From Ianthella basta (Eukaryota; Porifera; Demospongiae; Verongiida; Ianthellidae): a DNA stretch of 64,000 bases. The notes under the pieces are model-generated. The model did no database searches, was not told where the DNA came from, and saw only the letters and a list, made by a program, of their open reading frames with translations. Below, one piece after another: positions 132 through 55,282 of this stretch. A program made the position numbers and the translations under genes. The DNA lies in assembly GCA_964019415.1 (NCBI GenBank), contig OZ025889.1:4780870-4844869 (forward strand), written 5' to 3'. Positions within the stretch are counted from its first letter, which is position 1. Each line of letters starts with the position of its first letter.

Positions 132-6417
<6,286 letters not shown>

Positions 6418-10181: not shown

Positions 10182-10238
<57 letters not shown>

Positions 10239-10754
10239 ACACGCATACAGACCATTTCAACACTGTGCAGGTGTCTGTCCTGTGAATATCAACAAATACA
10301 TTTGCCTTAATTGTCACCTATATACATGTATAAGAACCATTGATTATTTCTCCTCATTGTGCAGTGACTTGTTCTCCTTCGTGTGAGAATGGTGGAATGT
10401 GCAGTGAGAGCAACACATGTCTCTGTACATCTGGTTTTATTGGTAATGCATGCAGTGAACAAGGCTAGTTAGTACTATAGTCTACACCTACAAAGAATAT
10501 GGAAGGGATCTGCTGAGCAAGAAACCCTTGCAGAATTGCAATCTTTAGTTTCCTTGTTCTTATTACATGTAGCTACATGCGAACCTCCGTGTGAAAATTC
10601 TGGAACATGTGTCAACCACAACGAATGTACATGCACATTTGGCTACACTGGCCCAACATGTAATATGACTGGTGAGCACTGACACTTGCATGTACACACA
10701 CGTATATACACACAACACACACATATACAGAGAGAGCAAAAAAGCGAGCGAGCG

Positions 10755-10808
<54 letters not shown>

Positions 10809-21473: not shown

Positions 21474-21624
21474 GGTGTGTGCTGTGTGTGGGTATGCATT
21501 GGGTGTGTGCTGTGTGTGGGTGTGCATTGGGTGTGTGCTGTGTGTGGGTGTGCATTGAGTGTGTGCTGTGTGTGGGTGTGCATTGGGTGTGTGCTGTGTG
21601 TGGATGTGCATTGGGTGTGTGCTG
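21474..21624. repeat. five units of the 28-bp INTS4-intron minisatellite
   Basis: Same unit as the array at 1989-3130, in the same orientation. It is joined on the left to the 3' flank of gene 1 and on the right, after a deletion, to sequence that precedes the INTS4 exon at 3460. Confidence 0.95.
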
Positions 21625-21639
21625 TTGGTTGCTTGTTTT

Positions 21640-28108: not shown

Positions 28109-28353
28109 AGTGTTGACCATATAAGGTGCTGGCCTAGAGTAGGCATGACAACATGTCTAGCCATATAATCCATTACACAAAATGATGTCTCAGCAAAATC
28201 AGCACTATTGACATTACTGGAATGTGCCAGCTACATCCTCTTTAGTACTGTATTTAATAGCTTGATGTGAGATGTGTACACACATGCAAATTGGTGTTTC
28301 CCGCAACTACAGAGGGAAGCACAGATTTTGCAATTCATTCCGCTAGAGGAAGA
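28109..28353 (+). promoter_or_regulatory. conserved upstream block of gene 2
   Basis: Aligns by eye with the blocks before genes 1 and 3 (GTTGACCATATAAGG, ACTGGAATGTGCCAGCT, GAGGGAAGC). It includes ATGCAAAT at 28284-28291. Likely promoter and 5' UTR. Confidence 0.5.
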
Positions 28354-31069
28354 ATGATGTCCCCTTTGGCCACAGTCCTTGTCCTGCTGGGTTTGTTTGC
28401 AGATGCCAGTGTGGCTCAGGTGGACGTGTGCTCTGCTACCATCAGCAACTTCTATGTCACCTCACGAGAGAGAATCTTTAACCAGACCACACGGCTCCTT
28501 CTCTCTGCCTTTTCAGACAACCCACTTGGCAGTGAGGCTGACCTGTACCAACAGCTACTGATGGATCTCGGTCTGCTTGACACACCAGACAGAGCGCAAA
28601 CCTTTGGCAGGGCATTCAGCCAAATTATTGCAGCAAATACTCAAGCGTGTACAGAGGTTCAAGGACTAACCATCACCAGTGCAAACACCACCCAAGTGAT
28701 TGCTGAATTGCAAAATGCCCTTGATTCAGGCCGCGATTTGAATTCAGTCAGGGACATTTTTGGTAGAGCGCTGTGCCTGGAAAGCCTAGTGCAGACTGAG
28801 AATGTGAGCTTTGTAACAGGGCTATCTGGAGAAGACCGAGGGAAGATATTTGGACTTGCACAGCGTCCCTACTCCCTTGGGTTTGTAGTAGATGACACTG
28901 GAAGCATGTCTGAAGAGATAGCAAGAGTAAGACAGATTATCACTGAGTTTGTCAATGATGATGTCGGAGCACCGACACACTATATCCTCACCACATTCAA
29001 TGATCCATGTGAGTCACTAGGTAACAATATATATTCTTATTTGCCGTTGCTAGGTGGTTGCTATGTTTATTGAGTGACTATAAAAGTGCTACTTGCAGTG
29101 AGAGGTGACAATCTGTTATCAGACAGCGATAATATCCTATTGGAGAGCAAGAATATCTAATCGGGTTCACAAAAATATCTAATCGGGTTCAGTGTGATTC
29201 AATCAATAGCAACAACACTTCACATGCAAGTGCTTGCATTCAGATCAAAACACAAGAACAGTTCAATGAAGCATACAGTAAATCTACACTACCCAACCAT
29301 ATTAATGGTTTTGAATATCTATGGTGCCACTGTAGTTTCAGTCATGGAAAAGGGTGCAAAAAGCTTAAGCTTCATCATATTGGAAGCACTGAGCAAACTG
29401 ATTACTGCCGTACCGTACTACAGCTGTCGAAATTTGTGCGTCGATGGTGGCCGATTCTTCCGCACGAGAGGACCGGGTCGGAAAGACTTCTCAAGTACGT
29501 AGCTAGCTAGCTAGCTACCGAACGAACATAGAGACTCAGATGACGGTCAGTTTCGACGCAGCTGATCACCGATCCATCGTGCTGTCCCACCGCCCATCGG
29601 GCGGACCTTCCGCCGACCCACGATTCACCAGCCAAGTCTTGTTGGCGCCTTCGATCGCGTTGCAGGAGCGGATCAAGACGTCTCCTCAGTAGAGGAAGAG
29701 GTTTCCGGAGGTGTAGCGTACGGACGTTTCTGCCTGACTCGCTTGGCTCCTCGCTAGCTAGCTATCGTAAAGAATGAAAATGCATTGGATTCGCCCGCGC
29801 TCCCCTAATGCTTTCCTTATTTGGCAACATTCGCCCACGCTTCCCTTTGTTCGGCAAATAAATCACTTGTAACACTTCCTTTTCGGGATGTCGCTGATTT
29901 ATAAGCACTCCACAAGCATTGTGTATATACTGCTATCAAACTGTATGCATACGTATTGATGCTATGGGCAATGGTTCATGATGCAGTATATACTGTATTA
30001 TAGTTGGGTTCAGTGTATCTAATTATTCATGCACAAAATCACTAGCTCTTCCATTGTTGCCTTACAGCTGTTGGGACGGCAGTGAGGTACGATGCCCAGA
30101 ACACTGCAGACAGACAGCAGCTCCTTACTGCTGTGAATGCATTGCGTGCTAATGGTGGAGGAGACTGCCCTGAGCTGGGGATGACAGGGATCATCAATGC
30201 TCTGGATCTCTCCTTCCCTGAAGGCCAACTCATTGTACTCACTGATGCATCAGCGAAAGACTCAACTCGCACAGATGAATCAATCATGGCAGCCTTCCAG
30301 CTAGGAGTGAGAGTACACTTTGCTTTCAGCCACACATCTGGTTGTGCTTCAGGTTACCCCTTCTATGACAGAGTTGCAAGTGAAACAGGTGGCCTTAGTG
30401 TTTACAGTCTCAATGATCTTAGCACTCTCTCCAATACCATCCAGAATGCAAGGGTTAATTTTCAAGAGGCAGATGACCCTACGGGTGCTGACACAACATC
30501 AACAGGTGACTGCAGGGCAATACACGTGTCAATGCTCACAGAGAACCTCTACATTGCCATCAACCCTGGGGCAGGGACTGCAGAAGTGTCCCTCCAAATG
30601 CCAGATGGAACCAACGTCTTTGGAAGAATGAGCATCAGTTCTCTCCTAATTCGAAACTTCAACTCCCCCGCTACAGGAGAATGGCTGGTATGCATCTTTA
30701 GTGGATCAGTGGAAGTCAGGCAGTCTCAGGATGTTCGATTTGACATCACCGCTGAGTTTCTCGTACAGGACGACAACACTGGACTGTACTTCTCTAGCAG
30801 CATGCCACCCTTCACTCGCTCTGAAGTCATCGCTCTTCTCTTCACTATGAGGCTTGACGATCTGTCTACTTCTCTCACTCATACACTAAAGATTGTAGAT
30901 GTGAGCGGAAGAGATCTCAGCAATGTACCACTGCTCCAGTGTGACCGCTTCCTGGAGGGACGTTTCACTCTCCCTACTGTCCAGTACAGAATGTTTTTCT
31001 CAGGATTTGACTCTAGTAACAACTCAGTAGTTGTTGACTTGGGGATTTTTCCAGCAGGGCCCCAACCAG
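28354..31069 (+). CDS. Gene 2 exons 1-2: signal peptide and VWA region
   Basis: Same layout as gene 1, with MIDAS-like VVDDTGSMSEEI and GGDCPELGMTGI. Exon 2 is one codon shorter (SGCASGYPF against TGCGVSGYPF). LTDASAKDSTRTDESI replaces the Tyr-Asn of genes 1 and 3 in the loop after the DASAKD motif. The intron between them carries an ~880-bp insertion that gene 1 lacks. Confidence 0.85.
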
Positions 31070-31957
31070 GTTAGTTAGTCATCATCATCTTTTTCTACTT
31101 TGAATATGCACATGTACACACGTGTGCATGCACACACACACGCACCCCCCCACCCCCCCCCCCCACACACACACACACACGCACGCACGCACACACACGC
31201 ACACACACACACACACAAACATTTCAACACTGTGCAGGCGTCTGTCCTGTGAATATCAACAAATACATTTGCCTTAATTGTCACCTATATACATGTGTAA
31301 GAACCATTGATTATTTTTCTTCATTGTGCAGTGACATGTTCTCCTTCGTGTGAGAATGGTGGAACATGCAGTGAGAGCAACACATGTCTCTGTCCACCTG
31401 GTTATATTGGCAGTGCATGCAGTGAACGAGGTTAGTTAGTACTATAGTCTACACCTACAAAGAATATGATGGAAGGGATCTGCTGAGCAAGAACCTCTTG
31501 CAGAGTTGCAATCTTCAGCTTCCTTGTAATTATTACATGTAGCTATATGCGAACCTCCATGTGAAAATTCTGGAACATGTGTCAATGTTGCAATCTTCAG
31601 TTTCCTTGTTCCCTGACAGCAAACAGCCCCACTGAACGAATAACAAACTGATCCTACTGTATGTGTGTCGATGTTGTTTGTATTATGTATGTGTTGTGGG
31701 TGCCTGGAAGAGTAGCCTTCTGGCTAAAGGTTCCCCACATTAAATAAGATCAATTATTATTATTATTGTTGTTCTTATTACATGTAGCTATATGCGAACC
31801 TCCGTGTGAAAATTCTGGAACATGTGTCAACCACAACGAATGTACATGCACATTTGGCTACACTGGCTCAACATGTAATATGACTGGTGAGCACTGACAC
31901 TCGCATGTACACACACGTACATACACACAACACACACACATACAGAGGGAGCGAAAG

Positions 31958-32013
<56 letters not shown>

Positions 32014-35000
32014 ACATGTTGCTATTCCCATCTATCCTTCTTGTGTCTTAGCTTTCATGGATTGCATTGCAGCAACAGATACCGCTAAGTGTCAGAATAA
32101 TGCTACTTGCAGGATAAACCTCCTCACTGACTCTCTCAACTGTGTGTGCCCTACAGCGTATATCGGAGATACATGTGAACAAAGTATGTTAAAGCAGCTG
32201 ATTTAATTCTGATTCAGTCATTTAGCTCATTATCATGTTCTGATTCATATGCACTTAGTCTTATGTACTGTAGAAATAGCATGCATTTCCCAAGGTCTGC
32301 TGAGAATGTGTGTGGGAGCTCGAGCTCCCCCATCACTCCAACTGCCGTCTCCCAAAATCCCTGGCCAACACCTACAAATTAATGGCAACAAAGAGATTAT
32401 TATTCCTCAAATTGCATTATACAAATCAATCTCAGCGGGACATAAAGCCCAAATTTTTTCTGTATAGGGGCATGATCCTAGAACCCCTCTCCAGAGGTGT
32501 GCTTTTGGGGAATGCTAATTCCCTCCAAATATACATTCTAGATAGAATCGGTTTCTTATAATTATTATAAGCTTGTACTGTAAGATATATGCATGCTCTC
32601 AAGTGCCATGTAGTCAAGCATGTTTATGCCCACTGCAGGGGTGTGTTCAGCAGTCAGTGCCAGTCCACTGTTTGGGTCTTTTGAAGGTGGTGCAACCATC
32701 TCTGTTGAGGTCTCCGCCACCTGCAACCTCACTGCAATTGAGCTAATCTCACCATTGTGTAGCTTTGGCAGCAAAACTGTGTCTGCTGCCGTGGTGGACT
32801 CTATGCATGTGGAATGTGTGATGCCACCTTTGATGATGACTGGAGATGTGCCTTTTGAGTTTCAGGCAGAGACAGTTGATTACGGAAAGTTGGAGTACAA
32901 GGATATCTTCACTGCTTGTGAGTTGTATGGATCATGCTCATGGCATTTGTAATTGTGAGTACAGGATTATATATAGATAGAGAGTTATGGGTGACTGGAA
33001 TGTTATTTCAACTGGGAAAGCCTTACCAAGAATATTTTCTGAGGTAGTTAAAATGAATAAGGTACAGAGTACCTGCTCTGAATACCAGATCGACTATTGA
33101 GGTTGTGCACAAGTGATAATGGGATCATGTGTGGTAGTCAATTTCTCATTCATTTTCAAGTGTCCTGCTGTCACTTTCTTTGCTCACACAGTGCAATGCC
33201 AGGTTGCTGTCAGTGCACCAAAGCCCTTTGCAGGATATGTTGTTGGTGGCACTACTGTATCATTGGCAGTATCTGATCCTTGCTCCCTGGCTTCTGATGA
33301 CATTTTGAGCTGTGCTTTTGGGCAAGTTGTGGTTCCTGCTACACAGAAAGATGTAAATTCTGCTACTTGTGTGGTGCCTTCACTGAATGCTTCAGGAACT
33401 GTTGATTTTGAATTCAGATCTGTATCAAAGACTAAAGGAAATTATACAATCAGAAAACATTTTGAAGCATGTAAGTCTAATTTCTAAGATTCTATAAAGC
33501 AAACACCCAGTGACCAATTATAAATAGCTACTCTTGAAATGAGTTAGTGGCTCTTGTATCCTGCAAATGTTCATAACTATTTCCCTTTATGCATTTGTAG
33601 TGGCCTGCGAAGTGGTGAGTGTGTGGCCTACTAGTGGACACATGGCTGGTGGCAGCACTATCACTGTCACTATCTCAGATCCTTGCACTTTACAACCAAC
33701 TGATGTCTTACAATGCACTTTCAATGGCATTCCAGTGCAAGCCTCTTATGAAAGTGCCAGTACTGCTAAATGTGTGATGCCTCTGGTAGACAGCACGGGT
33801 ACCATTCCATTTATGTTCACTGCGAACACTGGAGGGAACAGGGATGTTACAGCATCCATGGACTTTGAGTCCTGTAAGAGAATTACATAGAGTATTAACC
33901 AGTGACCCTAACACCATATACATAAATCTTGCAACTTAGCAATGCAACTCTAAAACTAATTGTTTCTTTCTCTCCCATTCACTGCTGCAGTACCTTGCAG
34001 GTTGTCATCCACTCCATTCATATCACCAACCTTTGGCAACATGCTAGGAGGCACTGCAGTCACCATCACCATTGCCAGCAACTGCTCGGAGGCAATAAGT
34101 GGCACCCCAATGTGTGTCTTTGATGGAAATCGGATAGTATCAGCTGTTGATGACTCTGGCTTATCACAAAGAGACCAGAATTATTACTTTTGTTCTGTAC
34201 CAATGTTTAAACGAACAGGACGGATCGTATTTGAATTCAGGGCCCAAGTTAAAGTTGCTGGAACACTGTCTTTGTTCGATAACTTCTACCTATGTGAGTG
34301 CCCTTACAGTGCTTCCACTGCACTACACTGCACACATGTTAGACAAGGCATTGCTACCAGTTGTCGATTACATGTAGTCAGGCCTGTTACATGAGTTAAG
34401 TACAATTTGTATACGCACACTTTCTGTGTTAATATGCATGAGTATATACTGTAGGTATAACCACATTTTGTATGTTTTTCACAATACATGTACACTTATT
34501 TACATCCTATTGCAGTGCCTCCATATCAGTCCCATGATGTGAGTGTCATGTTTAATGACTCTCTACTCATCGACAGTGAGATTAACTTGGTTTGGAGTAA
34601 TGTCTTCTCCAGATCAATAGAATCTTTTGGTGAAATAAGTGCTCTAAAATTTCAGTCGAATGTTCTACTCCATGTTCTACCTGTAAAAGGAAATGACAAA
34701 TTGGCTAAACATACCATTCTTAAGGATATTGATACTACAAGGAGCAGTGGTCCATTAATATCATATGAACGCATAATGAACACATTAAGGACAGGTATTC
34801 AACTACTTCCAGCTGGAATCTTTCAGGTGGTTACTACAGTGACTGGAGTATCAACCACTGACAGCTTCAGCTTTAGTAGGTGGTCTGGTGTGTACCTTAT
34901 AGCATCGCAGCCACTCTCAAATGATATTCGGATGGAACTAAGCTACATGTGCAATGTCCCAGATCAGCTTGACACTACTGGGTTGCCAGCTTGCCCTACC

Positions 35001-38000
35001 ACAGAGTTTCAAGCTCTGCTTTTCAATAGTGGTTTTGATGAAGAAGTGGTGGCCTCTGCTGAGGAAGAAATGTACATGGAGCAATATTACAGCTACCTGC
35101 ATCCAAAGAGCAGTGTCTGCTTTGTGCAACGTCAGCCTCAAGGCCCAAAGTGAGAGGAGTCTTGCTGAATTACAGGTCTAGGATATCTGTACTTCTTCAT
35201 TAATTTTACCGATATGGATTTGTACATAAGATAGACAGGTCGGTTGTAACTGTATATAGGCAAGGAAGGGACCACCAGGTTTGATACTGGCTGGTGCCAA
35301 TTTTCTCTTCCCTGCCTATCTTTCTTTCGAGTCGTAACATCCATTAAAATTGCTGCAATACTAAATCAATTATACTGTGCAAGTTGCATTGCATTCTGTC
35401 ATGTATCTTCACTCAATTTGTTTCTGTTTTCAACTTTGCATTTTTTTGACGAGAGTTACTTACGTATGTTTTAGTAAATATTGCTCAGTGTACTATTGTA
35501 TATGCATCTCATATGTAGCCTTCTGACTCAACAATGTTGCTATGACAACAATGGAATGCTGCTGGCTGACCCTGGAGAAGCCCGACCCAGCATTGGAACT
35601 CCTCTATACCAAACCTTCTCCACTATGGTGACATACTACAGAGAGACAGTGCTGCCATTTGTCTACTGCTGTAAGGAGGGTCTACCAGGAGAGGATAGAA
35701 TGGCACAGTGTAGTGCCTTCCAGTCCATGCTGCCTACTGACAATGGAAATGGTTATAGTCCTCCTGTACCAGGTATGGGACTGCCATGTCTGTATTATAT
35801 AAACCTTCTTTAGAATGTCATAGCAGCAAGTACTTAAGTTTGGATATCAAAACTTTCCCACTCCACAGCCTTGCTATTTGGTGATCCACACATTGTCACC
35901 TTGGATGGATCCCGCTACACTTTCAATGGGAAAGGAGAGTACACTCTTCTGGAGACAACTGATGGTAGTTTTGCATTTCAGGGCCGTCTTGAACAGGCTG
36001 TGGATGTGAATGGATCCATGATACAGGCAACTGTGTTCACCGCTATTGTGGCCAAAACAAACACTTCAGATGTGGTGCAGATGGAGGTCACTAATGGTAG
36101 TGCGATTGAAGTGCGCTTGAACAGGGAGGTAATTGATTTTTCTATATCAAGTCAGCAGTTTGCAGGAGTGGCAGCATCTCAGCAAGCCAATGGTACCTAC
36201 CTGGCAGTGTTTGAGGGAGGCTACGTTGTTGAGGTGAGAGGAGAGAATGACATTCTGTCTCTCATCAAGGTGACCCTTCCTGAGGAGGCAAGGGGAAGGA
36301 CACGTGGCCTCTTAGGCAACTTCAATGGTAATGCTTCAGATGACTTCATTCCCAGAAATGCATCAGAACCACTTTCTGTCAATTCCACAATGGAGGAGGT
36401 CCACAATTTATTTGGAGTTACATGTGAGTTTTCTTGATAGATGCATGACAGGAAGACAAGGAGCATCGATCATTTCTGTCAAGCTGAAACTCAGTTGCAC
36501 TAGCAGATGCTGCTAATTCTGCATTTTTGCTCCTTAGCAATGCATCAAGATATCTGTTGCAATGCATTTCCTGTTCTATTTGCACAGGGACTCTCACATC
36601 TGATGAGGACAGCTTGTTCTATTACAGGGGTAATATGAGCTGGATGGATTTCTATGACCCAGACTTCAGTCCTGCCTTTGCTCCAAACTTCACTGACCCT
36701 GACCTGGAGGCTGAAGCCATGACACTATGTGATGGTGACCCAGCATGTCTGTTTGATGTGGCTGCCACTGGTCGGTTGGATATAGGGCTATCATCTCTAA
36801 TTGGGCAGGAAGAAATAAACATCATTCAAACCTTAGAGACACCTAGTGAGTATTGTTATTCCTGTTTAAAGTGTGTGTGCATGTGCACGTGAGTGTTTGC
36901 AGGAATGTGTAATTGTATAATTATGATAAACGTGTGCACATTTGCATTCATAAGCTTGCTGCCTGTGGGTACATAGGCAGGTATACAGATACTTGTACAT
37001 GTGTGTCCTGTGCTTCCTCCCCCCCCCTTTCAGTACTGTGTGATCCTGTGTGCACAAATGGAGCTTGTGTTGCTAACAACACCTGTCTGTGTACTACTGC
37101 ATTCAGTGGGCCCACATGCAGCATTCAAGGTTTCCACAATAATGCATTTTATCAAGCATTAATATCAATACTTATCAATACTCATAATTATAATCAATAC
37201 CACTTCATTTACATGACAATCTTAGTTTACTTAGTTTCTATGCAACCTGTGCATGGTAAACCTACATAGTATGTACTGTGCAAGATTACACATGACCTGC
37301 ATTATGCAAAAGGCACCCACAGTATATATGCATTGCTTTGTATGTTGGTTCTTACCTTCTGTCTCCTATATGTAGTGTTTTCTTCATGTGACCGAAATGT
37401 ATGTGAAAATGGAGGAAACTGTACCCAACATGTCTTTGAGTACTTCTGTGAATGTCCTTCTTCCTACACTGGGACATTCTGTGAGATTGGTGAGGGAGCA
37501 CATGCCATTACATAATGTTGCACATGAAGGCACATACACTGCACAAAGACAGCCGATCTATACTAGCTATTACAGGCCTCTATAGCTACAATTCTCACAC
37601 CATAACAAGCACCAAAACACTGCTATGTGAATCCCATTGGGAAGCCTCCACCAAACTCTCCAGTTACCCCCTAAATATTTACCAATTGCAGTAATATTAT
37701 CAGAAATGCGATTTACTATTCATAGTGAAGTAGAATCAATCTTACAGTTACTGTATATGGAAGGCCTGGAATCAAAGATATTCCGGACTCTATATTTTCA
37801 TTGTATAGCTTCAAATTCACCATAGTACATACAACAGTGTAATATACGTATACAGTACAAGTTGCGTATCACAACTACCATGCTACGTACGTACACTGCA
37901 TGACAACTGCAACCTACATACCACACATTACAGTCATAAGCACCACTGATTTGAACAAGGCATCATTGCCATCCAAATATTTTGTCCTGTCCTTCTGCTT

Positions 38001-41000
38001 AGGACCTCCCAATACACCTGATGGTCTGTCAATTCACATCAAACCAGATGACACAACACCGGTGACAGCTGACATCTCCTGGATGGCATTGATGGAAAAT
38101 GCTACTGGGATCCCCACTGGGCGAAACAAAACTTTGACATACTTTGTGGTTGTGAGCGACACTACTTTAGCAGTGTTGTTCAGTGCTACTGTGAACCACC
38201 CGAATGATACCTTGGAGGCACCCAACCTGCCAGCATGTGACAATCTGACTTTGTCTGTAACAGCAGAGAACCTGTTCTTCAATGGAACCTCTGTCAGTGA
38301 AACTTTCATGACCGTGGAGTCAGGTTGGTAGTAGAGAGTTAGGCTGTCCATTGTCCCAATTTACAGCTTAGCTGAGAAGCTGAACTTAAATTTCTAGTTT
38401 AGTTGTATAATTTTATGAAGTTGCCATGCTTTGGCAAATGAAGAGATCTGGAATTCATATTATAATTGACAATTGACATTGATTGACATTGTGGTTCTAG
38501 GATACATCTGAGTGCTCATCAATTCTTTCCTGCTTTGCTATCATTCACCATGCAGTCCCACCAACAGTCACAGTGTCAACTGTGGAGCCCACTTCACACT
38601 ATCCTGCTGGCAGCAACATCTCCCTCCACTGCACATGGAACACTTCAGTGTACTATGTTGCATGGTACAAAAATGGTACACTGATCTATGAGGAAGACCT
38701 GGCTGCACCCTCCATCCTGATGGCACCCAAACAAAGGTTCAGTGTTATCAGTGACTTTGCAATGATGACGTCCAACCTGACCGTTAACAATGTTGAACTG
38801 GAGGACAGTGGCAACTACACCTGTGCTGTGACCTGTGTGGCCAGAGGAGTGGATTTTGGTACCATTGCTGGGAATCTTCAGGACACAGCTGTGGTGTTTG
38901 TCTATGGTGAGTGTCTCTTCTATATTAATGAAGTGGCCAACAGTGATGTGTCATGTGCCTGACCTTACCCATACATTAGAACGTCCCAATGCACCTGATG
39001 GATTGTCAGTAGTCATCAAACCAGATGACACAACACCAGTGACTGCTAATATTCCCTGGATGGCATTGATGGGTCGCTATAGAGGAATTTTCCCTGGAGG
39101 AAACCAAGATTTGAGGTATTTTGTGGTTGTGGCTGACATCAATTCAGCAGTGTTGTTCAGAGCTACAGTGGAGTACCCAGTGACCACAGTGGATGCACCA
39201 AACCTGCCTGCATGTGACAACCTGACTGTGTCAGTGACAGCAGAGAACCTGTTCTTCAATGGAACTTCTGTCAGTGAATATTTCATGACTGTGGAGCCAG
39301 GTTGGTACCTGACTGTTATAACCAATTGCAAAATGCACAAGTTAAACTTTACCGCTGAGATTGAAGTTGGGTTTAGTGGTGTAATTGACATGTTCTAGTA
39401 GGACATTCAGTGATTAACAATTAGAATAGTGTATAAAAATTCCTTTAGATTTAAAAGGTCTTAGGAATGGTCAGCAGAAAAAGCATAGAAACAAGCAACA
39501 GTAACTCTGAGTCAACACCGTGATAAGCCACATTTCTATGGAGTTCACCCTGCATTCCTAATTCCCTTGTAGCTACATGCATGCATGTGACAAACTAGCT
39601 AGCTACAAATTTGTGTCCATGCAGCTGTACAAGGAAATTAGGAATGCAGGGTGAACTCCATGGAAATGTAGTTTATCATGGTGTTGAGGTACTATTGCTT
39701 GTTTCTATGCCTTTTCTGCTGGCCATTCCTAAATCCCTTTTAATTCTAAGGGTATTTTATACATTAGTTTGCACGCTTCTTGCATATCCAAAGGACTATG
39801 TCTACATCAGATTAATACTTGCTCTGACTAAAACCCCTTCGTTAAATTAGATGAAATTTGTGCATAACATCGAGCACAGTTATGCCATTCCTGATGGAAT
39901 GGCTGCTGGGGACATTCCTAAATTGACGTCACAAGCGTGACATCTGATATATGACGTTGTGGTTATTGGGTTCTACAATTGTTCCTCAATTCTTTCCTGC
40001 TTTGCTTTCATTCACCATGCAGTCCAGCCAACAGTCACAGTGTCAATTGTGGAGTCCACTTCACACTATCCTGCTGGCAGCAACATCTCCCTTCAGTGCA
40101 CATGGAACACTTCAGTGTACTATGTTGCATGGTACAAAAATGGTACACTGATCTATGAGGAAGACCTGGCTGCACCCTCCATCCTGATGGCACCCAAACA
40201 GGGGTTCAATGTTGTCAGTGACTTTGCAATGATGACGTCCAACCTGACCATTGACAATGTTGAACTGGAGGACAGTGGCAACTACACCTGTGCTGTGACC
40301 TGTGTGGCCAGAGGAGTGGAGTTTGGTACCATTGCTGGGTATCTTCAGGACACAGCTGTGGTGTTTGTCTATGGTGAGTGTCTCTTCTACATTCACGAAG
40401 TAGCCAACAGAGATGTGTATCATGTGCTTAATCATACCCTTACATTAGAACATCCCAATGCACCCAATGGATTGTCAGTCATCATCAAACCAGATGACAC
40501 AACACCAGTGACTGCTAATATACCCTGGATGGCACTGATGGGTCGTGATGCAGGAATATCTCCAGGAGGAAACCAAGACTTGAGGTATTTTGTGGTTGTG
40601 ACTGACATCACTTCAGCAGTGTTGCTCAGAGCTACAGTGGAGTACCCAGTGACCACAGTGGATGCACCCAACCTGCCCGCATGTGACAACCTGACTGTGT
40701 CAGTGACAGCAGAGAACCTGTTCTTCAATAGAACCTCTGTCAGTGAATATTTCATGACTGTGGAGCCAGGTTGGTAGCGCATTGAGATGACTCTCATACC
40801 CCAGTTAAATTTAATGCCTAAGTAGAAAATGGGTGAAGTTGTGTAACATTGGTGTGTTTGAAGTCTAAATCAGAAATGAAGAATTTAATCTGAAGAACAG
40901 CGGTGCTTCCAATAATTGATATTAGAAAATGTATTGGAGTTATTGAATTTTCTGACTCCATATCATCTCATTCTTTCGTACTTTGCATTCATTCATCAGT

Positions 41001-44000
41001 CCTACCAACAGTCACAGTGTCAACTGTGGAGCCCACTTCAGACTATCCTGCTGGCAGCAACATCTCCCTCCACTGCACTTGGAACACTTCAGTGTACTAT
41101 GTTGCATGGTACAAAAATGGTACACTGATCTATGAGGAAGACCTGGCTGCACCCTCCATCCTGACGACACCCAAACAAGGCTTCAGTGTTGTCAGTGACT
41201 TTGCAATGATGACGTCCAACCTGACCATTAACAATGTTGAACTGGAGGACAGTGGCAACTACACCTGTGCTGTGACCTGTGTCGCCAGAGGAGTGGATTT
41301 TGGTACCATTGCTGGGAATCTTCAGGACACAGCTGTGGTGTTTGTCTATGGTGAGTGTCTCTTCTATATTAATGAAGTGGCCAACAGTGATGTGTCATGT
41401 GCCTGACCTTACCCATACATTAGAACGTCCCAATGCATCTGATGATCTGACAGTAGTCATCAAACCAGATGACACAACACCAGTGACTGCTAATATACCC
41501 TGGATGGCACTGATGGGTCGTGATGCAGGAATATCTCCAGGAGGAAACCATGACTTAAGGTATTTTGTGGTTGTGACTGACATCACTTCAGCAGTGTTGT
41601 TCAGAGCTACAGTGGAGTACCCAGTGACCACAGTGGATGCACCCAACCTGCCCGCATGTGACAACCTGACTGTGTCAGTGACAGCAGAGAACCTGTTCTT
41701 CAATGGAACTTCTGTCAGTGAATATTTCAAGACTGTGGAGCCAGGTTGGTACCAGACTTTGAAAACCTACATATTAATTGAAATTTACTCCTGGGTTTAC
41801 AAATTGATTTGCCGTGCCATTGCTGTGATCTGACAGAATGAAGAAATATGGAATTCATATTTAGTAGTACATTCAGTAGCTGACATTAGAATGACTATTG
41901 TATGACATATGACATAAGTGGCTTGGATTTCCAACTCTGCATCAACTCATTCTTGCTTTGCATCTATTTTTAGTCCCACCAACAGTCACAGTGTCCTCTG
42001 TGGAGCTCACTTCACACTATCCTGCTGGCAGCAACATCTCCCTCCAGTGCACATGGAACACTTCAGTGTACTATGTTGCATGGTACAAAAATGGTACACT
42101 GATCTATGAGGAAGACCTGGCTGCACCCTCCATCCTGATGGCACCCAAACAGGGGTTCAATGTTGTCAGTGACTTTGCAATGATGACGTCCAACCTGACC
42201 GTTAACAATGTTGAACTGGTTGACAGTGGCAACTACACCTGTGCTGTGACCTGTGTCGCCAGAGGAGTGGAGTTTGGTACCATTGCTGGGAATCTTCAGG
42301 GCACAGCTGTGGTGTTTGTCTATGGTGAGTGTCTCTTCTACATTCACGAAGTAGCCAACAGAGATGTGTATCATGTGCTTAATCATACCCTTACATTAGA
42401 ACATCCCAATGCACCCAATGGATTGTCAGTCATCATCAAACCAGATGATACAACACCAGTGACTGCTAATATACCCTGGATGGCATTGATGGGTCGTGAT
42501 GCAGGAATATCTCCAGGAGGAAACCAAGACTTGAGGTATTTTGTGGTTGTGACTGACATCACTTCAGCAGTGTTGCTCAGAGCTACAGTGGAGTACCCAG
42601 TGACCACAGTGGATGCACCCAACCTGCCCGCATGTGATAACCTGACTGTGTCAGTGACAGCAGAGAACCTGTTCTTCAATGGAACCTCTGTCAGTGAATA
42701 TTTCATGACTGTGGAGCCAGGTTGGTACCTGTTTGTTATAACCAAAAACACGTCAAAATTTAGTGCTGGGATTGAAGTTGCATTTAGTTGTGTAATTGGC
42801 ATGTTCTAGTAGGACATTCAGTGATTGACAGTAAGAATGTAAGACAGTGTGGTAATTGGATTGTACAACTGTTCATCAATTCTTTCCTGCTTTGCTTTCA
42901 TTCGCCATGCAGTCCCACCAACAGTCACAGTGTCAACTGTGGAGCCCACTTCACACTATCCTGCTGGCAGCAACATCTCCCTTCAGTGCACATGGAACAC
43001 TTCAGTGTACTATGTTGCATGGTACAAAAATGGTACACTGATCTATGAGGAAGACCTGGCTGCACCCTCCATCCTGATGGCACCCAAACAAAGGTTCAAT
43101 GTTGTCAGTGACTTTGCAATGATGACATCCAACCTGACCATTGACAATGTTGAACTGGAGGACAGTGGCAACTACACCTGTGCTGTGACCTGTGTGGCCA
43201 GAGGAGTGGAGTTTGGTACCATTGCTGGGAATCTTCAGGACACAGCTGTGCTGTTTGTCTATGGTGAGTGTCTCTTCTACATTCACGAAGTAGCCAACAG
43301 AGATGTGTATCATGTGCTTAATCATACCCTTACATTAGAACATCCCAATGCACCCAATGGATTGTCAGTCATCATCAAACCAGATGACACAACACCAGTG
43401 ACTGCTAATATACCCTGGATGGCACTGATCGGCCGTGATGCAGGAATATCTCCAGGAGGAAACCAAGACTTGAGGTATTTTGTGGTTGTGACTGACATCA
43501 CTTCAGCAGTGTTGCTCAGAGCTACAGTGGAGTACCCAGTGACCACAGTGGATGCACCCAACCTGCCCGCATGTGACAACCTGACTGTGTCAGTGACAGC
43601 AGAGAACCTGTTCTTCAATGGAACTTCTGTCAGTGAATTTTTCATGACTGTGGAGCCAGGTTGGTAGCGCATTGAGATGACTCTCATACTCTAGTTAAAT
43701 TTAATGCCTAAGTAGAAAATGGGTGAAGTTGTGTAACATTGGTGTGTTTGAAGTCTAAATCAGAAATGAAGAATTTAATCTGAAGAACAGCGGTGCTTCC
43801 AATAATTGATATTAGAAAATGTATTGGAGTTATTGAATTTTCTGACTCCATATCATCTCATTCTTTCGTACTTTGCATTCATTCATCAGTCCTACCAACA
43901 GTCACAGTGTCAACTGTGGAGCCCACTTCAGACTATCCTGCTGGCAGCAACATCTCCCTCCACTGCACATGGAACACTTCAGTGTACTATGTTGCATGGT

Positions 44001-47000
44001 ACAAAAATGGTACACTGATCTATGAGGAAGACCTGGCTGCACCCTCCATCCTGACGACACCCAAACAAGGGGTCAATGTTGTCAGTGACTTTGAAATGAT
44101 GACATCAAGTCTGACCATTGACAATGTTGAACTGGAGGACAGTGGCAACTACACCTGTGCTGTGACCTGTGTGGCCAGAGGAGTGGATTTTGGTACAATT
44201 GCTGGGAATCTTCAGGACACAGCTGTGGTGTTTGTCTATGGTGAGTGTCTCTTCTATATTGATGAAGTGGCCAACAGTGATGTGTCATGTGCCTGACCTT
44301 ACCCATACATTAGAACGTCCCAATGCACCTGATGGATTGTCAGTAGTCATCAAACCAGATGATACAACACCAGTGACTGCTAATATACCCTGGATGGCAT
44401 TGATGGGCCATGATGCAGGAATTTTCCCAGGAGGAAACCAAGACTTGAGGTATTTTGTGGTTGTGACTGACATCACTTCAGCTGTGTTGTTCAGATCTAC
44501 AGTGGAGTACCCAGTGACCACAGTGGATGCACCCAACCTGCCCGCATGTGATAACCTGACTGTGTCAGTGACAGCAGAGAACCTGTTCTTCAATGGAACC
44601 TCTGCCAGTGAATATTTCATGACCGTGGAGCCAGGTTGGTACCTGACTGTTATAACCAATTGCAAAATGCACAAGTTAAACTTTACCGCTGAGATTGAAG
44701 TTGGGTTTAGTTGTGTAATTGGCATGTTCTAATAAAACATTCAGTGATTGACATTTAGAATGTATGACTTTGTGGTTATTGGATTCTACAACTGTTCATT
44801 GATTCATTTTGCTTTGCTTTCATTTGCCATGCAGTCCAGCCAACAGTCACAGTGTCAACTGTGAAGCCCACTTCCGACTATCCTGCTGGCAGCAACATTT
44901 CCCTCCAGTGCACATGGAACACTTCAGTGTACTATGTTGCATGGTACAAAAATGGTACACTGATCTATGAGGAAGACCTGGCTGCACCCTCCATCCTGAC
45001 GACACCCAAACAAGGCTTCAGTGTTGTCAGTAACTTTGCAATGATGACATCAAGTCTGACCATTGACAATGTTGAACTGGAGGACAGTGGCAACTACACC
45101 TGTGCTGTGACCTGTGTGGCCAGAGGAGTGGATTTTGGTACCATTGCTGGGAATCTTCAGGACACAGCTGTGGTGTTTGTCTATGGTGAGTGTCACTTCT
45201 AATTTTATCGCAAGTTTCAAAACTTCAATACATGTCATGTGTCTGACCTTTCTTGTTTTGTAGAACATCCCAGTGCTCCTGATCATCTGTCAGTAGTCAT
45301 CAAACCAGACGACACAACACCAGTGACAGCCAACATATCCTGGATGCCCTTGATTGGCAGTGCTGATGGGATTCCCCCTGGAGGGAACCAAACCTTGAGG
45401 TACTTTGTGGAAGTGAGTAACAGTAGTTCAGCAGTGTTGTTTTGTGCTACAGTGGAACACCCAGATGATGCCTTGAAGGCACCCAACCTGCCAGCATGTG
45501 AGAACCTGACTGCGTCAGTGACAGCAGAAAATCTGTTCTTCACTGAATCCTCTACCAATGAAGAGTTCATGACAGTGGAGCCAGGTTGGTAGCCATGCAG
45601 GTTTGGAGCTGATTAACTTGACATTGACCACAACGTCACTCTGACGTTTTTAATTTTGCTATTTATCTGTGACTATAGGAGCTGTACATGCATATGTCAA
45701 GTTAAGTTAAGTTAACCAGCTTATGTCATTGCAAACTGCTCTGTGGTGTTGTATCTGTTCTCCAATGTTCCAGATGACCCTGTTGTGACCCTGATTCCTA
45801 CTGTGGATCTCCTAAGGCTTGAAGGGAATGTTGCTGACACTCTCACACTCATCTGTTCCTGGAGCTCACCAGTGTACTACATAATTTGGTTCGAAAACAA
45901 GGTTCCCTTGTATACAAAAGATCTTGTCAGTGGAGTCGTAATGGACAGATCTGGCTCTTCTTTGGAAGTGGACGTGGGGGGACAGAACAGTATGCTCACC
46001 TTCAGTCAAGTGAATGACAGTGGGAACTACACCTGTGCAGTGACCTGCAGAGCAAAGGGCAGTGCTGAGGGAGACATTCCAGTGGAATTCAAGGCCACCA
46101 AGGAGGTGCTCATCTATGGTGCGTTAACAAAGTATTGCTGTCAATAAAGAGCAGGTCTCATTTAATTCACTGATGTGATCCTCCACACTGTGCAGTATTT
46201 TGATGTTTGCTATTGCCTTCCTCGTACCAGATGTGCCACGTGAGGTGACTGACTTTGATGCTAGTGTGGGCTACCTCAGTGTCACCTTCTCCTGGACTCC
46301 CCCCTCCTTCCTGGGAGTGCCCCCCACTCTGGACCCTGTGGGTATCATTTACTACATTGTAGATATCAGAAATGACACAGACTCAGTACGTAGGGCTATA
46401 GTGCCCCACCCCACCACCACTGTTGTGGTCAACCTGACCTACCCGTGTGAGGAGTACAATGCCACCATCTTTGCAAGGAACATCCAAGCAGGCGATGGAC
46501 CAACATCAAGGCACACTTTCACACTGAATGAAATAGGTAATTTGTATTCAACTGCAGAGCATCTACATAAACAAGCTTACAATCAGCTATTCTACTGTAC
46601 AGTGTGCTCCATAGATCTGCTATCTGCACATGTAGCTTCTGTGAAATCATAAAGTACAACTAAGATAGGATGGCAGTTTTTGTTGCAGCTGTACTTCATG
46701 CTTGCATAATCATGGTTTTACTCTCCAAAAGATGCCTGTAATTGTTTCCATCCTTGCCTATATGGTTACACTCCTTCCCTCAGATGCCATCAACGTCAGT
46801 CTTTCTCAAAAGGACCTTGTTACTTACCTCTTCCGAGCAACAACCAGTGCCAACAACACCATCTTGCTGAACTGCTCTTGGGATGCTGATACTTACTATG
46901 TGGCTTGGTTGAAGGACGGCATCTCTTTCTATGAAGAAGACTGGGTCAGGGGGGTAGAGAGACAGGAGTACGGAACCTTCAGTGGTACTGCAAGCATTGC

Positions 47001-49444
47001 TGCTGATTTTTCTTTGCATTGGAGTACTCTACAAGTCACAGATGCCTTTATCACTGATTCAGCAAACTACACATGTGCAGTGACATGTGGTGCTCGGCAG
47101 GTGGTTAGAGGTGAAGTGCAGCAGCTGTCTGAAGAGTTCAGTGCCACCAGGGAGGTGCTTGTGCTGGGTATGTAAGAATAACCTGCTTCTGTTTAACTGA
47201 GCGGTAACATTCATTGTGCAATCTTCTCCATGCATGCAGCTGCCACAGATGGCCTGATGGCTACTCTGCGACGTTCAACATACTTGGTTGTGGAGTGGAC
47301 AGCACTACCCAATCCATTCAGTGGGAACTACCTACTTACATATGGTCCAATTGATGGGATGACAACTTCCATCACAGTCCCTGTTAACTCCTACAACATC
47401 ACTGGACTACAGCCCTTCACATACTACACGGTGACTGTCCAAGCAAGCAATGCCCCAGTAGTGGAGTTTGGTCCTCCCTTGAGTGGAGTGTTTGCAACCT
47501 TGCCAGATGCTGCTGTTTCAGCACCACTTCCAGAAGATGAAGTTCTTTCTCTCACTGTGCCTCAAATTAGGGCTGGGTCAAGTGCAATAGTGGAGATTGT
47601 AATCCCTCCACCTGCATTTGCCCGTCAAGACTTTTTGAGGTAAAACAGAGTTCAATCTCATAATAATTCATGTGCATCCACACTTTGTGTGCTACAATTG
47701 TAGCTATGTAGCTATATGTACGTGATAGTAATTGTCACTTATGTTTTGTTCTATGTATTGAAATGATGCACATTCGGGTACCTCACTTATCATTGTTCCA
47801 TATTTTATTCTTGCCTTACCTCTTGCAGTCACCTGTGGGTGGTATGCATCAGAAACATTCTCCCAACAACTAGAAGCACAACTCCAGACACAGCCTTCCC
47901 AGGCAACAGCACATTTGGTACATATGACAGTGCAGAGGACAATGTGCCATATATTGCATCAGAGTTTGATCCAGCTGCAGAAAGGATCACCTTCCCTTAC
48001 CAGTTTGGCGTGGGTGATGAATCTGAGCCAAATGACTTTCCTAGTCAGTACAGGAATGGCCCTGTCATGGCAGGGAAGACCTTAGACTGCTTTGTCAGAT
48101 ATTTTGTCAGCACTGAGGTGAGGAAGAGAGCAAGCACCACATGCAGCTACAGCGGCACTGCATTCACTCCTTGTGTTTGTCTGCTCCTAGCTCTCACCAG
48201 ACAGGAGGAGGAGGGACGCACTTCCTAACAGACAGTACGATGTCTTCCAATCCACTGGCTATGCAACTGTGAACATAAGTGAGTGCTGAATGTGGCAATA
48301 GTAGTATATTGAACATGTGTATATGTGTAACATAGAGTAGTGCACAGCACGATCTATGTAACACTTGCATCCCCATATGTAGGTGGGTCAAGTGGAAGCA
48401 GCTGCTAGCTTTTGACTTGATCTCTTCTCTCTGTGCAGTTCCTCCACACTCCATTATTGAGGATGGTCTCATAGCAGGTCTTGCTGTATGCGCAGCCATT
48501 GTAGCAGTCACAGTTCCAATGGCAATACTCATGCTCATCTATATGAGGTGTGTGAGAGTTACTGTACAATGCATGCATCATCACATTGTGTACTGAATAA
48601 TGCTAACTTTGCTAAGCTTATATGCTGGTAGTAATAGATAACATAATTACCATGACAACCAATGGTACGCAGTGACACGATATGAATATTAATGTGGCTT
48701 TAAACCTGTTATTTTCTTGTGGCAATGGACTCTGTATAATATGAATATTGTACATATTCGGCCTGTGTGTTAGTATCCTTGTACACCCAGATGACATCCA
48801 CCGTGCATACACAGGGGCTGGTACATTGTTATACTGTTCACATGCTTGTAAAGTCCTCAGTGTCATGCAGCAAGTAAAGGTAGCTGGATGCCACTGATAT
48901 GTCTGGGATAATTGTGTTCACACACTCACTTTTGTCATTTGTATATGGAAAGAAGATTGAATGGCAGTTTGATTTTCATGAGGCTTTGCAGAAATGATTT
49001 TACAGCCTGCATTTTTTGGGTGCATGTGTGGAGTGTACTACATGAACATTTACAGCAACAGTCTATTGTACATTAAATATCTTTGAGAGTAACGCTAATG
49101 TGTCATGTAGATGATGTATGGGTACAATGTGAGCATGCTAACTTGTCTTGTACATTGACATCCGTGCAGGAAACATGGCAAAGGCAAGAATGGGAAAGAG
49201 AGTAAAATGGTATGTACATATTATAATATGCATGTTTTCCAACACACCTGTTCATCTTGGCCTCCAAATCCCCAGAGCATTGCTGCATATTTGGTATTGG
49301 TGTATTACTATACTGAAACTTGCACTGTATACTTTTTGCCCTTGCAATCCAATCTTTATTGTCTACGCATATATTATATACATACAGGACTCTGTGATCA
49401 TTGGCAACCACAACTTTGAACAGCAAGAAAAGGCTAATGTTTAG
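28354..49444 (+). CDS. Gene 2: expanded VWA-AMOP-VWD-(FN3-Ig)x8 transmembrane receptor, 40 exons, ~4024 aa
   Basis: Exons 1-15: 28354-29008, 30068-31069, 31332-31430, 31788-31886, 32052-32183, 32639-32917, 33192-33470, 33601-33873, 33991-34293, 34516-35149, 35519-35772, 35869-36423, 36588-36845, 37034-37129, 37376-37489. Sixteen FN3/Ig exons follow at 38003-46118, then 46231-46536, 46784-47167, 47240-47639, 47829-48117, 48191-48278, 48439-48547, 49170-49209 and 49388-49444. Summed length is 12075 nt and every phase closes. The domain order matches gene 1 except that the first FN3-Ig pair is repeated eight times. Start MMSPLATVLVLLGLF gives the signal peptide. Introns are longer than in gene 1 because of insertions at about 29030-29910, 31612-31769 and 39430-39764. 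Confidence 0.85.
29030..29910. other. ~880-bp insertion in gene 2 intron 1 with a CpG-rich core
   Basis: Gene 1 has 188 bp in this intron; gene 2 has about 1060 bp. Sequence matching gene 1 stops just after the donor and resumes near CACAAGCATTGTG at about 29913. The core (29400-29770) is rich in CpG and contains GCTAGCTAGCTAGC-like repeats at about 29503 and 29752. A 102-aa open frame at 29194-29502 resembles nothing known to me. No clear terminal repeats were found. It may be a transposon or a captured promoter-like CpG segment. Confidence 0.5.
31332..37489 (+). CDS. Gene 2 exons 3-15: EGF x3, IPT-like x4, AMOP, VWD, EGF x2
   Basis: Each exon matches its gene 1 counterpart in length and phase. 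Exons 9 and 10 are each one codon longer (QRDQNYYFC; LLPAGIFQ). The IPT-like exons at 33192 and 33601 are almost identical to those of gene 1, while the exon at 33991 has diverged (SNCSEAISGT, SQRDQNYYF). The first EGF donor is a normal GT here. The VWD exon keeps LFGDPHIVTLDG and the LLGNFNG word. Confidence 0.85.
31543..31585 (+). pseudogene. truncated duplicate of the second EGF exon of gene 2
   Basis: An acceptor and the first 43 bp of the exon at 31788 (CTATATGCGAACCTCC and on) are duplicated here. They break off into a second copy of the upstream intron sequence. There is no donor, and reading on meets a stop. If this acceptor were used the message would be truncated; the intact exon downstream retains its own acceptor. 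Confidence 0.75.
31612..31769 (+). mobile_element. 3' end of a non-LTR retrotransposon (LINE-like) with ATT-repeat tail
   Basis: A segment ending in GGAAGAGTAGCCTTCTGGCT, then AAAGGTTCCCCAC and a (TTA)n tail, matches the form of 3' ends of L2/CR1-type LINEs. It is 5'-truncated to about 160 bp and inserted into the intron before the second EGF exon of gene 2, inside a short tandem duplication. Genes 1 and 3 lack it. Confidence 0.6.
38003..46118 (+). CDS. Gene 2 tandem array of eight FN3-Ig module pairs
   Basis: FN3 exons (321 nt each): 38003-38323, 38980-39300, 40449-40769, 41424-41744, 42400-42720, 43339-43659, 44314-44634, 45264-45584. Ig exons (351 nt): 38556-38906, 40023-40373, 41000-41350, 41974-42324, 42913-43263, 43890-44240, 44835-45185. 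A divergent last Ig of 345 nt lies at 45774-46118. All are 1-1 phase, so modules can be gained or lost without frame damage. The first seven Ig copies differ by few bases (TWNTSVYYVAWYKNG and NYTCAVTCVARGV constant). Variation concentrates in short positions such as LMAPKQ/LTTPKQ. Module period is 939-977 bp except where a transposon enlarges one intron. Gene 1 has a single such pair. Confidence 0.9.
39430..39764. mobile_element. ~335-bp foldback element with ~135-bp terminal inverted repeats
   Basis: Left arm (39430 to about 39572) and right arm (about 39628-39764) are imperfect reverse complements: TGTATAAAA...TTAGGAATGG on the left, CCATTCCT...TTTTATACA on the right. A GGAGTTCACCCTGCATTCCT / AGGAATGCAGGGTGAACTCC stretch matches exactly. 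It sits in the intron between the second FN3 exon and the second Ig exon of the array, only in this module. Non-autonomous DNA transposon; target duplication not clear. Confidence 0.75.
46231..49444 (+). CDS. Gene 2 C-terminal part: FN3, Ig, FN3, RPTP-like juxtamembrane domain, TM, tail
   Basis: Eight exons equal in length and phase to the last eight of gene 1. Nucleotide similarity is very high even in introns, with differences such as SVRRAIVPHP against SVGGATVPHP in the FN3. The transmembrane helix lies in the exon at 48439 (GLAVCAAIVAVTVPMAILM). The tail is RKHGKGKNGKESKM plus DSVIIGNHNFEQQEKANV, ending with TAG at 49442-49444. Confidence 0.85.
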
Positions 49445-52289: not shown

Positions 52290-52550
52290 TAGAGTTGACC
52301 ATATAAGGTGGTGGCCTAGATTCGGCATGCCAGTAACTATGTCTAACTGTGCAATTGATTACACAAAGTTGGTATCTTAACTTAATGAGGCTGCACCGTC
52401 ATATGCTAAACAGTGTAATTACTGGAATGTGCCAGCTGCACCCTCATTGGTGTGTACTTAAGGACTAGATGAGATACATTCATGCACATGCTTTCCCACA
52501 AAGACTGAGGGAAGCTCTATAGATTTGCAGTTAATTCTTCTAGAGGAAGA
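52290..52550 (+). promoter_or_regulatory. conserved upstream block of gene 3
   Basis: Shares GTTGACCATATAAGG, ACTGGAATGTGCCAGCT, GAGGGAAGC and TCTAGAGGAAGAATGGTGTC with genes 1 and 2. It is more diverged and lacks the ATGCAAAT octamer, having ATGCACAT instead. Confidence 0.45.
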
Positions 52551-54430: not shown

Positions 54431-54506
54431 GTTAGTTGGTTACATCAGTGTCATCATTTTATACTTATGTAGAACATGCACATGTACATGTACTGTACAC
54501 ACACAC

Positions 54507-54596
<90 letters not shown>

Positions 54597-55193
54597 TCTT
54601 CTTCCTTACTCTAAGTGCACAAGGCAAACTACCCCGAGAGGTGTGCAAACGTCTTCAGGTGAACAGCCAAGGGGTAACCTACAGTAGGTGGTGCCATCAG
54701 TCGACACCTTGTATTTAAAGTCAGCTTGATCCTTGCTGTTATGATGCTACTGCTAATGACAACAGTGGCTTGGTGGTATGGAATGATGATGGGGTGTGGG
54801 GATAGCTTAGGCAACTGTTTCACAGCAAAAAGCAATCTCCTTAATTAATCCACGGCAGTTCCTCCTTCAGCGACTGTCTGTTAGGGTCCAAAGGGGAAAT
54901 GCAGCAGCAGTTCTCAGAAGCATGGGGGGCAGACAGGACTGCTGGGAGTGACTTGCACCCTTGCATGTTGATTACATCATTTACTTTTTGACAATCAAAA
55001 CTTACATTTACACTACTTATAGCCAGGACAAGGAAAGAAAATGAACTCACTCTTCCCTGTCTGGTTATAATGGTACACTTGTTGTTATAGAATTAGGTTT
55101 GTTCCTCTGAAAAAGATGGGCAGGAAATGGGCTACAAGTACAGCCCTCTCTCCAGGAGTCACGCCTTGACCTCTTTAACTGTCAGCCATTTCA

Positions 55194-55282
<89 letters not shown>

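Follow-up and report, generated by a model that had tools for sequence, protein, structure and literature searches.

The window analyzed here, a 64,000-nucleotide stretch of the Ianthella basta genome, contains 16 alternating FN3-like and immunoglobulin (Ig) exons on the + strand at 38003-46118, within what we call gene 2, and raises the question of how such an array arises and whether the number of its FN3-Ig pairs changes. The exons measure 321 nt (8), 351 nt (7) and 345 nt (1), and all 16 are preceded by AG, followed by GT, divisible by 3 in length, open without stops and bounded by phase 1 at both ends. The sizes, coordinates and 1-1 phases listed for these exons in an earlier note, made from the letters alone, were all verified on the sequence; the entries for F2-F5, F7 and I2-I7 below derive from this exon check.

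38003..38323, + strand: F1, FN3-like exon, 321 nt, phase 1-1, divergent outer copy, about 78% identical to F2-F7
38556..38906, + strand: I1, Ig exon (V-set-like), 351 nt, phase 1-1, with a Pfam match
38980..39300, + strand: F2, FN3-like exon
40023..40373, + strand: I2, Ig exon
40449..40769, + strand: F3, FN3-like exon
41000..41350, + strand: I3, Ig exon
41424..41744, + strand: F4, FN3-like exon
41974..42324, + strand: I4, Ig exon
42400..42720, + strand: F5, FN3-like exon
42913..43263, + strand: I5, Ig exon
43339..43659, + strand: F6, FN3-like exon, 98.4% identical to F3
43890..44240, + strand: I6, Ig exon
44314..44634, + strand: F7, FN3-like exon
44835..45185, + strand: I7, Ig exon
45264..45584, + strand: F8, FN3-like exon, divergent outer copy
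45774..46118, + strand: I8, Ig exon of 345 nt and of a different Ig type

The near-identical core consists of seven Ig exons (Ig 1-7, 92.6-97.4% mutual identity) and six FN3-like exons (FN3 2-7, 92.5-98.8%), and for these the description of near-identical pairs stands. Its extension to all eight pairs is rejected: the identity of FN3-1 and FN3-8 to the rest of the FN3-like exons is only 77.6-79.4%, and Ig-8, of another type, shares about 27% DNA identity (ungapped) with the other array Ig exons and 34% protein identity once aligned. F1 is 91.6% identical to the lone FN3-like exon of gene 1, a tandem paralogue upstream, and Ig exons of the I8 type are also present at the membrane-side end of several arrays on another contig, C19.

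The Ig exons are predicted by profile match to encode immunoglobulin domains: I1 matches Ig_3 (3.8e-11) and V-set (1.8e-9), both above the cut-off, and I8 reaches 28.7 bits with Ig_3, just below the cut-off of 30. The FN3 fold of their partners is weakly suggested by sequence matches; the original label FN3 is less secure than it was put, and the exons are called FN3-like here. The fn3 family is indeed the commonest Pfam match of the FN3-like exon family (15/55 members at E <= 1, best E 5.2e-4), but none of the three array exons scanned (F1, F2 and F8) matches any Pfam family at E <= 0.05, and F5 has zero matches at E <= 1. Ig_RIMBP2 matches 8/55 family members, its best E (3.2e-4) being slightly lower than that of fn3, and the best match of an FN3-like exon to a solved structure, tenascin FN3, is weak (E 0.31).

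The array lies in a gene with two tandem paralogues in the window, the relevant parts of which are as follows.

16764..17084, + strand: lone FN3-like exon of gene 1, from sequence comparison
17280..17630, + strand: lone array-type Ig exon of gene 1, from sequence comparison
28261..37488, + strand: upstream part of gene 2, from the first open frame to the last EGF exon
46179..48593, + strand: membrane-side part of gene 2 (open-frame limits), with fn3-like, Ig and fn3 domains, a conserved juxtamembrane region and a transmembrane segment
52509..62010, + strand: gene 3, the third tandem paralogue (open-frame limits), with upstream domains as in gene 2

Judged from its predicted domains, gene 2 encodes a type I, single-pass membrane protein, a receptor or adhesion protein, in which VWA, EGF-like, TIG-like, AMOP, VWD and C8 domains precede the array and the transmembrane segment. 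The upstream part comprises a signal-peptide-like start, VWA_4, EGF-like, two weak TIG matches, AMOP (25 bits, exactly at the cut-off), VWD (74 bits), C8-3_MUC4 (50.1 bits) and EGF-like exons, the last of which ends in phase 1. SUSD2, Mesh and MUC4 are AMOP-VWD membrane proteins (the MUC4 label comes also from Pfam), and like gene 2, proteins of this kind combine AMOP, VWD and C8-3_MUC4 domains with a membrane anchor; gene 2 differs from them in the VWA domain at its front and in the FN3-Ig array that follows the phase-1-ending EGF exon. A NIDO domain before AMOP is a feature of MUC4-like proteins of this group; the open frame at the corresponding position, 34461-35150, just upstream of the AMOP exon, matched zero Pfam families. 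Gene 3 has a transmembrane-like segment of its own and zero FN3-Ig matches. Phosphatase (PTP) pieces of a C19 paralogue gave zero matches in the window at E <= 0.01, and contig C22 is absent among those of the 175 Y_phosphatase matches that were listed (150 of 689 candidates scored); the cytoplasmic PTP domain of receptor-type tyrosine phosphatases was not recognized in the genes of the window.

Three introns of the array and one repeated block are given here.

39301..40022, + strand: intron F2-I2, 722 nt, enlarged by a foldback (MITE-like) insert
40770..40999, + strand: intron F3-I3, 230 nt, 99.1% identical to F6-I6
43660..43889, + strand: intron F6-I6, the near-identical partner of 40770-40999
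39951..41744, + strand: block I2-F3-I3-F4, matching I5-F6-I6-F7 without gaps at an offset of 2,890 bp

The near-identity noted earlier for the two introns that follow F3 (end at 40769) and F6 (end at 43659) thus amounts to 99.1% over 230 nt. Likewise, two intron types do follow the Ig exons in mixed order: types of 73 and 75 nt, 98.6-100% identical within and 86% between types, are arranged a-b-a-b-b-a after Ig exons 1-6, and the intron after Ig-7 is of a third kind, of 78 nt. The foldback insert in F2-I2 occupies about 39434-39780, with borders judged by eye, and the remaining introns between FN3-like and Ig exons measure 189-232 nt. Open frames at 39941-40774, 41913-42806 and 42843-43664 read through the 75-nt introns in frame; a coding role of these introns was considered and rejected, since the frame is interrupted in the 73-nt sister type and the splice borders of both types are standard.

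The offset of 2,890 bp is a three-pair period that spans about 1.8 kb including introns; 100-base windows along it, from 39951 up to the one that begins at 41651, have 88-100 identities each. Among units U1-U6, compatibility between neighbouring sites is higher than after permutation (PHI-type permutation p = 0.002, 38 sites), that is, the units are mosaic. Identities, at 92-99%, are not extreme throughout, and therefore only the copies F3/F6 and F3-I3/F6-I6 look very recent. Could the array then be an artefact of haplotype merging or other misassembly? Two 230-nt introns with only about two differing sites might reflect allelic divergence assembled in tandem, but the divergence among core units is 1.9-6.4%, the two intron types alternate, the foldback insert is present in only one intron, the contigs reach 6-7 Mb, and three other arrays behave alike with other unit sizes. 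With unit divergence, intron types, the single insert and the other arrays all against it, we consider this explanation highly improbable.

Gene 1, about 21 kb upstream, has one pair against the eight of gene 2. The two genes align from 10554-17635 with 31769-38911 and then directly from 17634-20365 with 46101-48835; a few bases beyond the donor of the gene 1 Ig exon the sequence enters the tail of an I8-type exon, and gene 1 is therefore seven pairs short of gene 2. The FN3-Ig cassette family is found mostly on contigs C19 and C8, and at least two C19 members bear tandem tyrosine-phosphatase exons. Pair number differs between paralogues: the 11 C19 arrays inspected hold 0-14 array-type Ig exons each, and three of them contain block repeats of one or two pairs, namely a2 (2,278 bp, two pairs, 94.5%), a11 (2,316 and 2,415 bp, two pairs each, 96.2% and 92.0%) and a6 (1,580 bp, one pair, 94.8%). 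Elsewhere in the genome, a silicatein-like probe gave 9 matches, and the two loci read among them have ordinary cathepsin-L motifs; innexin produced two weak matches, and a Cys-loop receptor search gave zero matches here as well as in 14 control genomes. No description of this family of FN3-Ig cassettes appeared among the results listed by text searches of the literature.

The earlier proposal that unequal exchange has added or removed one or more pairs at a time is well supported by the 2,890-bp period, the mosaic sites, the one-pair gene 1 and the C19 block repeats of other sizes. Old copies kept alike mainly by gene conversion, with a pair number fixed in the species, would be an alternative: mosaic sites are equally expected from gene conversion, which could account for part of the mosaic without length change, and differences of up to 7.5% among F2-F7 fit old copies. 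That the 2,890-bp period is exact over about 1.8 kb, introns included, shows block duplication, however, and the single pair of gene 1 and the 0-14 Ig exons of the sister arrays show that the number shifts over longer time, so that we regard this alternative as unlikely, albeit worth considering. In trees, the nearest neighbour comes from the same array for 28 of 50 array-type Ig exons (1000 label shuffles: mean 7.8, maximum 18) and for 29 of 60 FN3-like exons (shuffles: mean 7.6, maximum 20; one of 61 exons dropped as too short), including 7/7 array-type Ig and 6/8 FN3-like exons of the gene 2 array. For the other 22 of 50 and 31 of 60, about half, it comes from another array, and shared descent or exchange between arrays must therefore also be present.

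Strong positive selection as the driver is unsupported: pooled between-copy pN/pS is 0.59 (Ig) and 0.32 (FN3), with no overall sign of positive selection among the array copies, and dN/dS exceeds 1 in 2/21 Ig pairs (1.13 and 1.09) and 0/15 FN3 pairs. An ectodomain under positive selection or with high polymorphism would be the mark of a hypervariable allorecognition or immune receptor. Another explanation holds that the exons serve alternative splicing, by choice or skipping of pairs, as a diversity device rather than reflecting evolution of array length. Phases are 1-1 throughout and any subset of whole exons is therefore in frame, from which it follows that frame-safe skipping would be possible; however, isoforms built from near-identical copies would differ mainly in length, and shuffled extracellular domains are usually bounded by phase 1 on both sides. 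We find this explanation improbable.

The LPA kringle IV type 2 array, with its phase-1 exon pairs, near-identical introns and allele length variation, resembles the gene 2 array in the first two features and differs in involving a kringle domain, a plasma protein and one gene rather than a receptor family. LAR-like receptor-type tyrosine phosphatases share with the FN3-Ig family, C19 members of which bear phosphatase exons, an ectodomain of Ig and FN3 or FN3-like domains, which stand in separate blocks in the former and strictly alternate in gene 2. The single sponge receptor phosphatase treated in passages of PMC5336234 is of the R3 type, with FN3 only. The mechanism of array growth is known in kind from DMBT1 (salivary agglutinin), in which, according to the passages of PMC4851238 on this gene, the SRCR number changed by units of one and four domains and allelic variation is such that molecules may hold 7-20 domains. 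Tandem, near-identical, in-frame domain-coding units, changed in number by units in a recognition protein, are the feature that the gene 2 array shares with DMBT1; the latter consists of SRCR units in a secreted protein, with measured allelic variation, whereas gene 2 has FN3-Ig pairs in a membrane protein and its copy number was compared between paralogues of one assembly.

We therefore favor, with fair confidence, the reading of the array as an ectodomain repeat of a single-pass receptor or adhesion protein, in which unequal homologous exchange between near-identical exons and introns would add or remove phase-1-bounded pairs of FN3-like and Ig exons, one to several at a time, with each gain or loss of whole pairs keeping the reading frame. 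The pairs may act as a stalk or a multivalent binding rod, which would hold the VWA-AMOP-VWD-EGF head off the membrane, such that pair number would set reach or avidity. Sister genes have different pair numbers, and receptor length therefore probably changes often; variation between alleles is plausible, and a search of the assembly with the VWD exon found this locus once, as an identical copy, and gave no second haplotype. More speculatively, and in our view doubtfully, phosphatase receptors and phosphatase-less chimeras with EGF or VWA/AMOP/VWD heads, having in common one rapidly re-sized ectodomain array, might form a recognition system in which the length or composition of the array serves as an individual- or cell-specific cue.

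The locus clearly exemplifies a receptor ectodomain able to lengthen or shorten by whole frame-safe exon pairs, and steps of one, two and three pairs in its paralogous arrays provide replicates within one genome. The FN3-Ig receptor clusters, some with tyrosine-phosphatase exons, are a candidate cell-recognition repertoire, and if pair number varies between alleles, they would be a natural setting in which to ask whether information in recognition lies in receptor length or avidity.

The array lies in the second of three tandem genes of the window (genome G000, contig C22, positions 4780870-4844869; assembly of 209 Mb in 96 contigs). Sixteen alternating FN3-like (F1-F8) and Ig (I1-I8) exons were found at 38003-46118 as the earlier note had claimed, with AG/GT borders, open frames, phase 1 at both ends and the lengths given there (eight of 321 nt, seven of 351 nt and one of 345 nt); from its sequence, the 321-nt exon type is probably FN3. 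The description of these exons as eight near-identical pairs holds for F2-F7, which show 92.5-98.8% mutual DNA identity, and for I1-I7 (92.6-97.4%), but not for F1 and F8, which are 77.6-79.4% identical to the remaining FN3-like exons, nor for I8, a different Ig type at the membrane-side end (about 27% ungapped DNA identity to the other Ig exons; 34% as aligned protein). The near-identical core thus consists of seven Ig and six FN3-like exons. What had been noticed of the introns was borne out: F3-I3 and F6-I6 are 99.1% identical, and the introns following Ig exons fall into two types in mixed order, of 73 nt (after I1, I3 and I6) and 75 nt (after I2, I4 and I5), with 98.6-100% identity inside a type and 86% across types. 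The 75-nt introns (40374-40448, 42325-42399 and 43264-43338) are open and in frame, such that their retention would preserve the frame, whereas that of the 73-nt type would not.

The three tandem genes are about 76-93% alike across long stretches, and two further copies of the VWD exon, one per strand, lie downstream on the same contig:

8170-20140, + strand: gene 1, carries an FN3-Ig part
28261-48593, + strand: gene 2, carries an FN3-Ig part (the array)
52509-62010, + strand: gene 3, upstream part common with genes 1 and 2

Upstream of the array, gene 2 matches the Pfam domains VWA_4, TIG (in two exons, one over the cut-off), AMOP (25 bits, exactly the cut-off), VWD and C8-3_MUC4; downstream, there are fn3 matches in two exons, one over the cut-off, and an Ig match below the cut-off in exon 46669-47172. 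The translations, when read, further show EGF-like exons, a start resembling a signal peptide and, near 48430-48560, a transmembrane segment. The gene 2 sequence behind this segment retains short pieces similar to gene 1 and to the paralogues on contig C19, but yielded no definite tail exon. Comparison of gene 3 with the array sequences yielded no FN3-Ig match, and this gene seems to close with a transmembrane segment of its own. Genes 2 and 3 are homologous until just beyond the second EGF exon, at 37505 and 61183, respectively, and in gene 2 this exon, by reading, ends in phase 1. We infer that a phase-1 intron was the point where the FN3-Ig-transmembrane half became attached to a gene-3-like head, this direction of change being unproven. 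Near gene 1 there are long minisatellites built of 28- and 23-base units (1993-3130, 5325-5851 and 21474-21625), the 28-base unit recurring at 21474.

Gene 1, about 21 kb upstream, aligns with gene 2 as far as the end of exon I1 and from there passes straight to the I8 tail, which in gene 1 starts a few bases beyond the Ig donor, so that gene 1 contains one pair against eight in gene 2. Its sole FN3-like exon is 91.6% identical to F1 and 78.8-80.1% to the other FN3-like exons of the array; the best core-pair alignment of its FN3-Ig stretch, intron included, is with F7-I7 (88.6% over 880 positions). Within the array, at an offset of 2,890 bases, or three pairs, windows starting at 39951-41651 match at 88-100 of 100 bases, the repeated block being I2-F3-I3-F4 versus I5-F6-I6-F7. 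In a four-gamete test of the six core units, 274 of 630 pairs of biallelic informative sites were incompatible, and incompatibility is lower for sites within 100 columns (0.263 versus 0.414 permuted; p = 0.002, 2000 permutations, 38 sites), as expected under block exchange. The F2-I2 intron, at 722 nt, is enlarged by a foldback, MITE-like insert (about 39434-39780); given that the remaining F-I introns measure 189-232 nt, the insert arrived after the separation of those copies. Across the genome, this insert has at least 80 matches at a minimum of 40 places, on both strands at each (40 of 1,131 first-look candidates scored).

Scoring of all 127 candidates gave 122 genomic matches to the array Ig exon at E <= 0.001, mainly on C19 (0.63-1.90 Mb) and contig C8 (3.16-3.24 Mb). 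Counts of paralogous arrays cover 219 kb of C19, apart from a cut-off fragment at 849.6-850 kb; the eleven arrays contain 0, 0, 1, 1, 1, 1, 3, 3, 8, 10 and 14 array-type Ig exons, compared with 1 in gene 1 and 7 in gene 2, and some counts may be low, array a5 showing its membrane-side exons only and a11 starting near the edge of its stretch. Of the 121 array-type exons with testable borders, a set that includes the I8 type and the exons of the window itself, 107 have AG and GT borders and measure 321-354 nt, and 14 lack such borders. Three C19 arrays show block repeats, of 2,278 bp, 2,316-2,415 bp and 1,580 bp. An exon's nearest neighbor comes from its own array in 28 of 50 Ig and 29 of 60 FN3-like cases, more than in any of 1000 label shuffles; for about half of the exons it lies in another array, so that the arrays are also linked by exchange of older date or by shared ancestry. 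Seven C19 genes share the window's transmembrane type at 50-62% identity and an eighth, near phosphatase hits, at 35%; EGF-like frames precede the arrays in two C19 stretches inspected.

In at least two C19 genes there are tyrosine-phosphatase exons, two sets per gene; partial hits lie at 682-683 and 721 kb, and all five pieces chosen from one gene match Pfam Y_phosphatase, four over the cut-off. At C19:621441-627415 (- strand; 1441-7415 of the inspected stretch L017), tandem phosphatase exons follow an FN3-Ig ectodomain, and the second domain, with VHD at an exon edge in place of the expected catalytic VHC, may accordingly be a pseudophosphatase. Scoring of 150 of 689 candidates genome-wide gave a minimum of 175 Y_phosphatase matches, many on contigs C6 and C12, with large clusters at about 4.2-7.6 Mb and 4.4-6.1 Mb, respectively, and internal stops in some matches, which suggests a large repertoire of phosphatases in which introns or pseudogenes occur.

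A text search for this or a similar FN3-Ig array family, with subscription papers mostly outside its reach, found no description of it. Published reports mention a sponge receptor phosphatase of the FN3-only R3 type (PMC5336234), sponge Ig and FN3 domains alongside SRCR (PMC6208332; PMC4772301), and receptor phosphatases in tunicate allorecognition tissue (PMC12065747). Domain repeats are described as often growing by several domains at once (PMC1553488). Of measured parallels, DMBT1 comes closest; its units are SRCR domains that vary in one- and four-domain steps, with 7-20 domains possible per molecule (PMC4851238).

When comparisons between copies are pooled, pN/pS is 0.59 in I1-I7 and 0.32 in F2-F7, giving no overall sign of positive selection in these exons; single pairs, which are not independent, range over 0.22-1.13 for Ig (2 of 21 above 1) and 0.11-0.69 for FN3. 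The gene 2 product is inferred to be anchored in the membrane and to act in adhesion or recognition, with the array as a putative stalk or multivalent rod; because whole-pair changes are all frame-preserving, the array is free to change in length.
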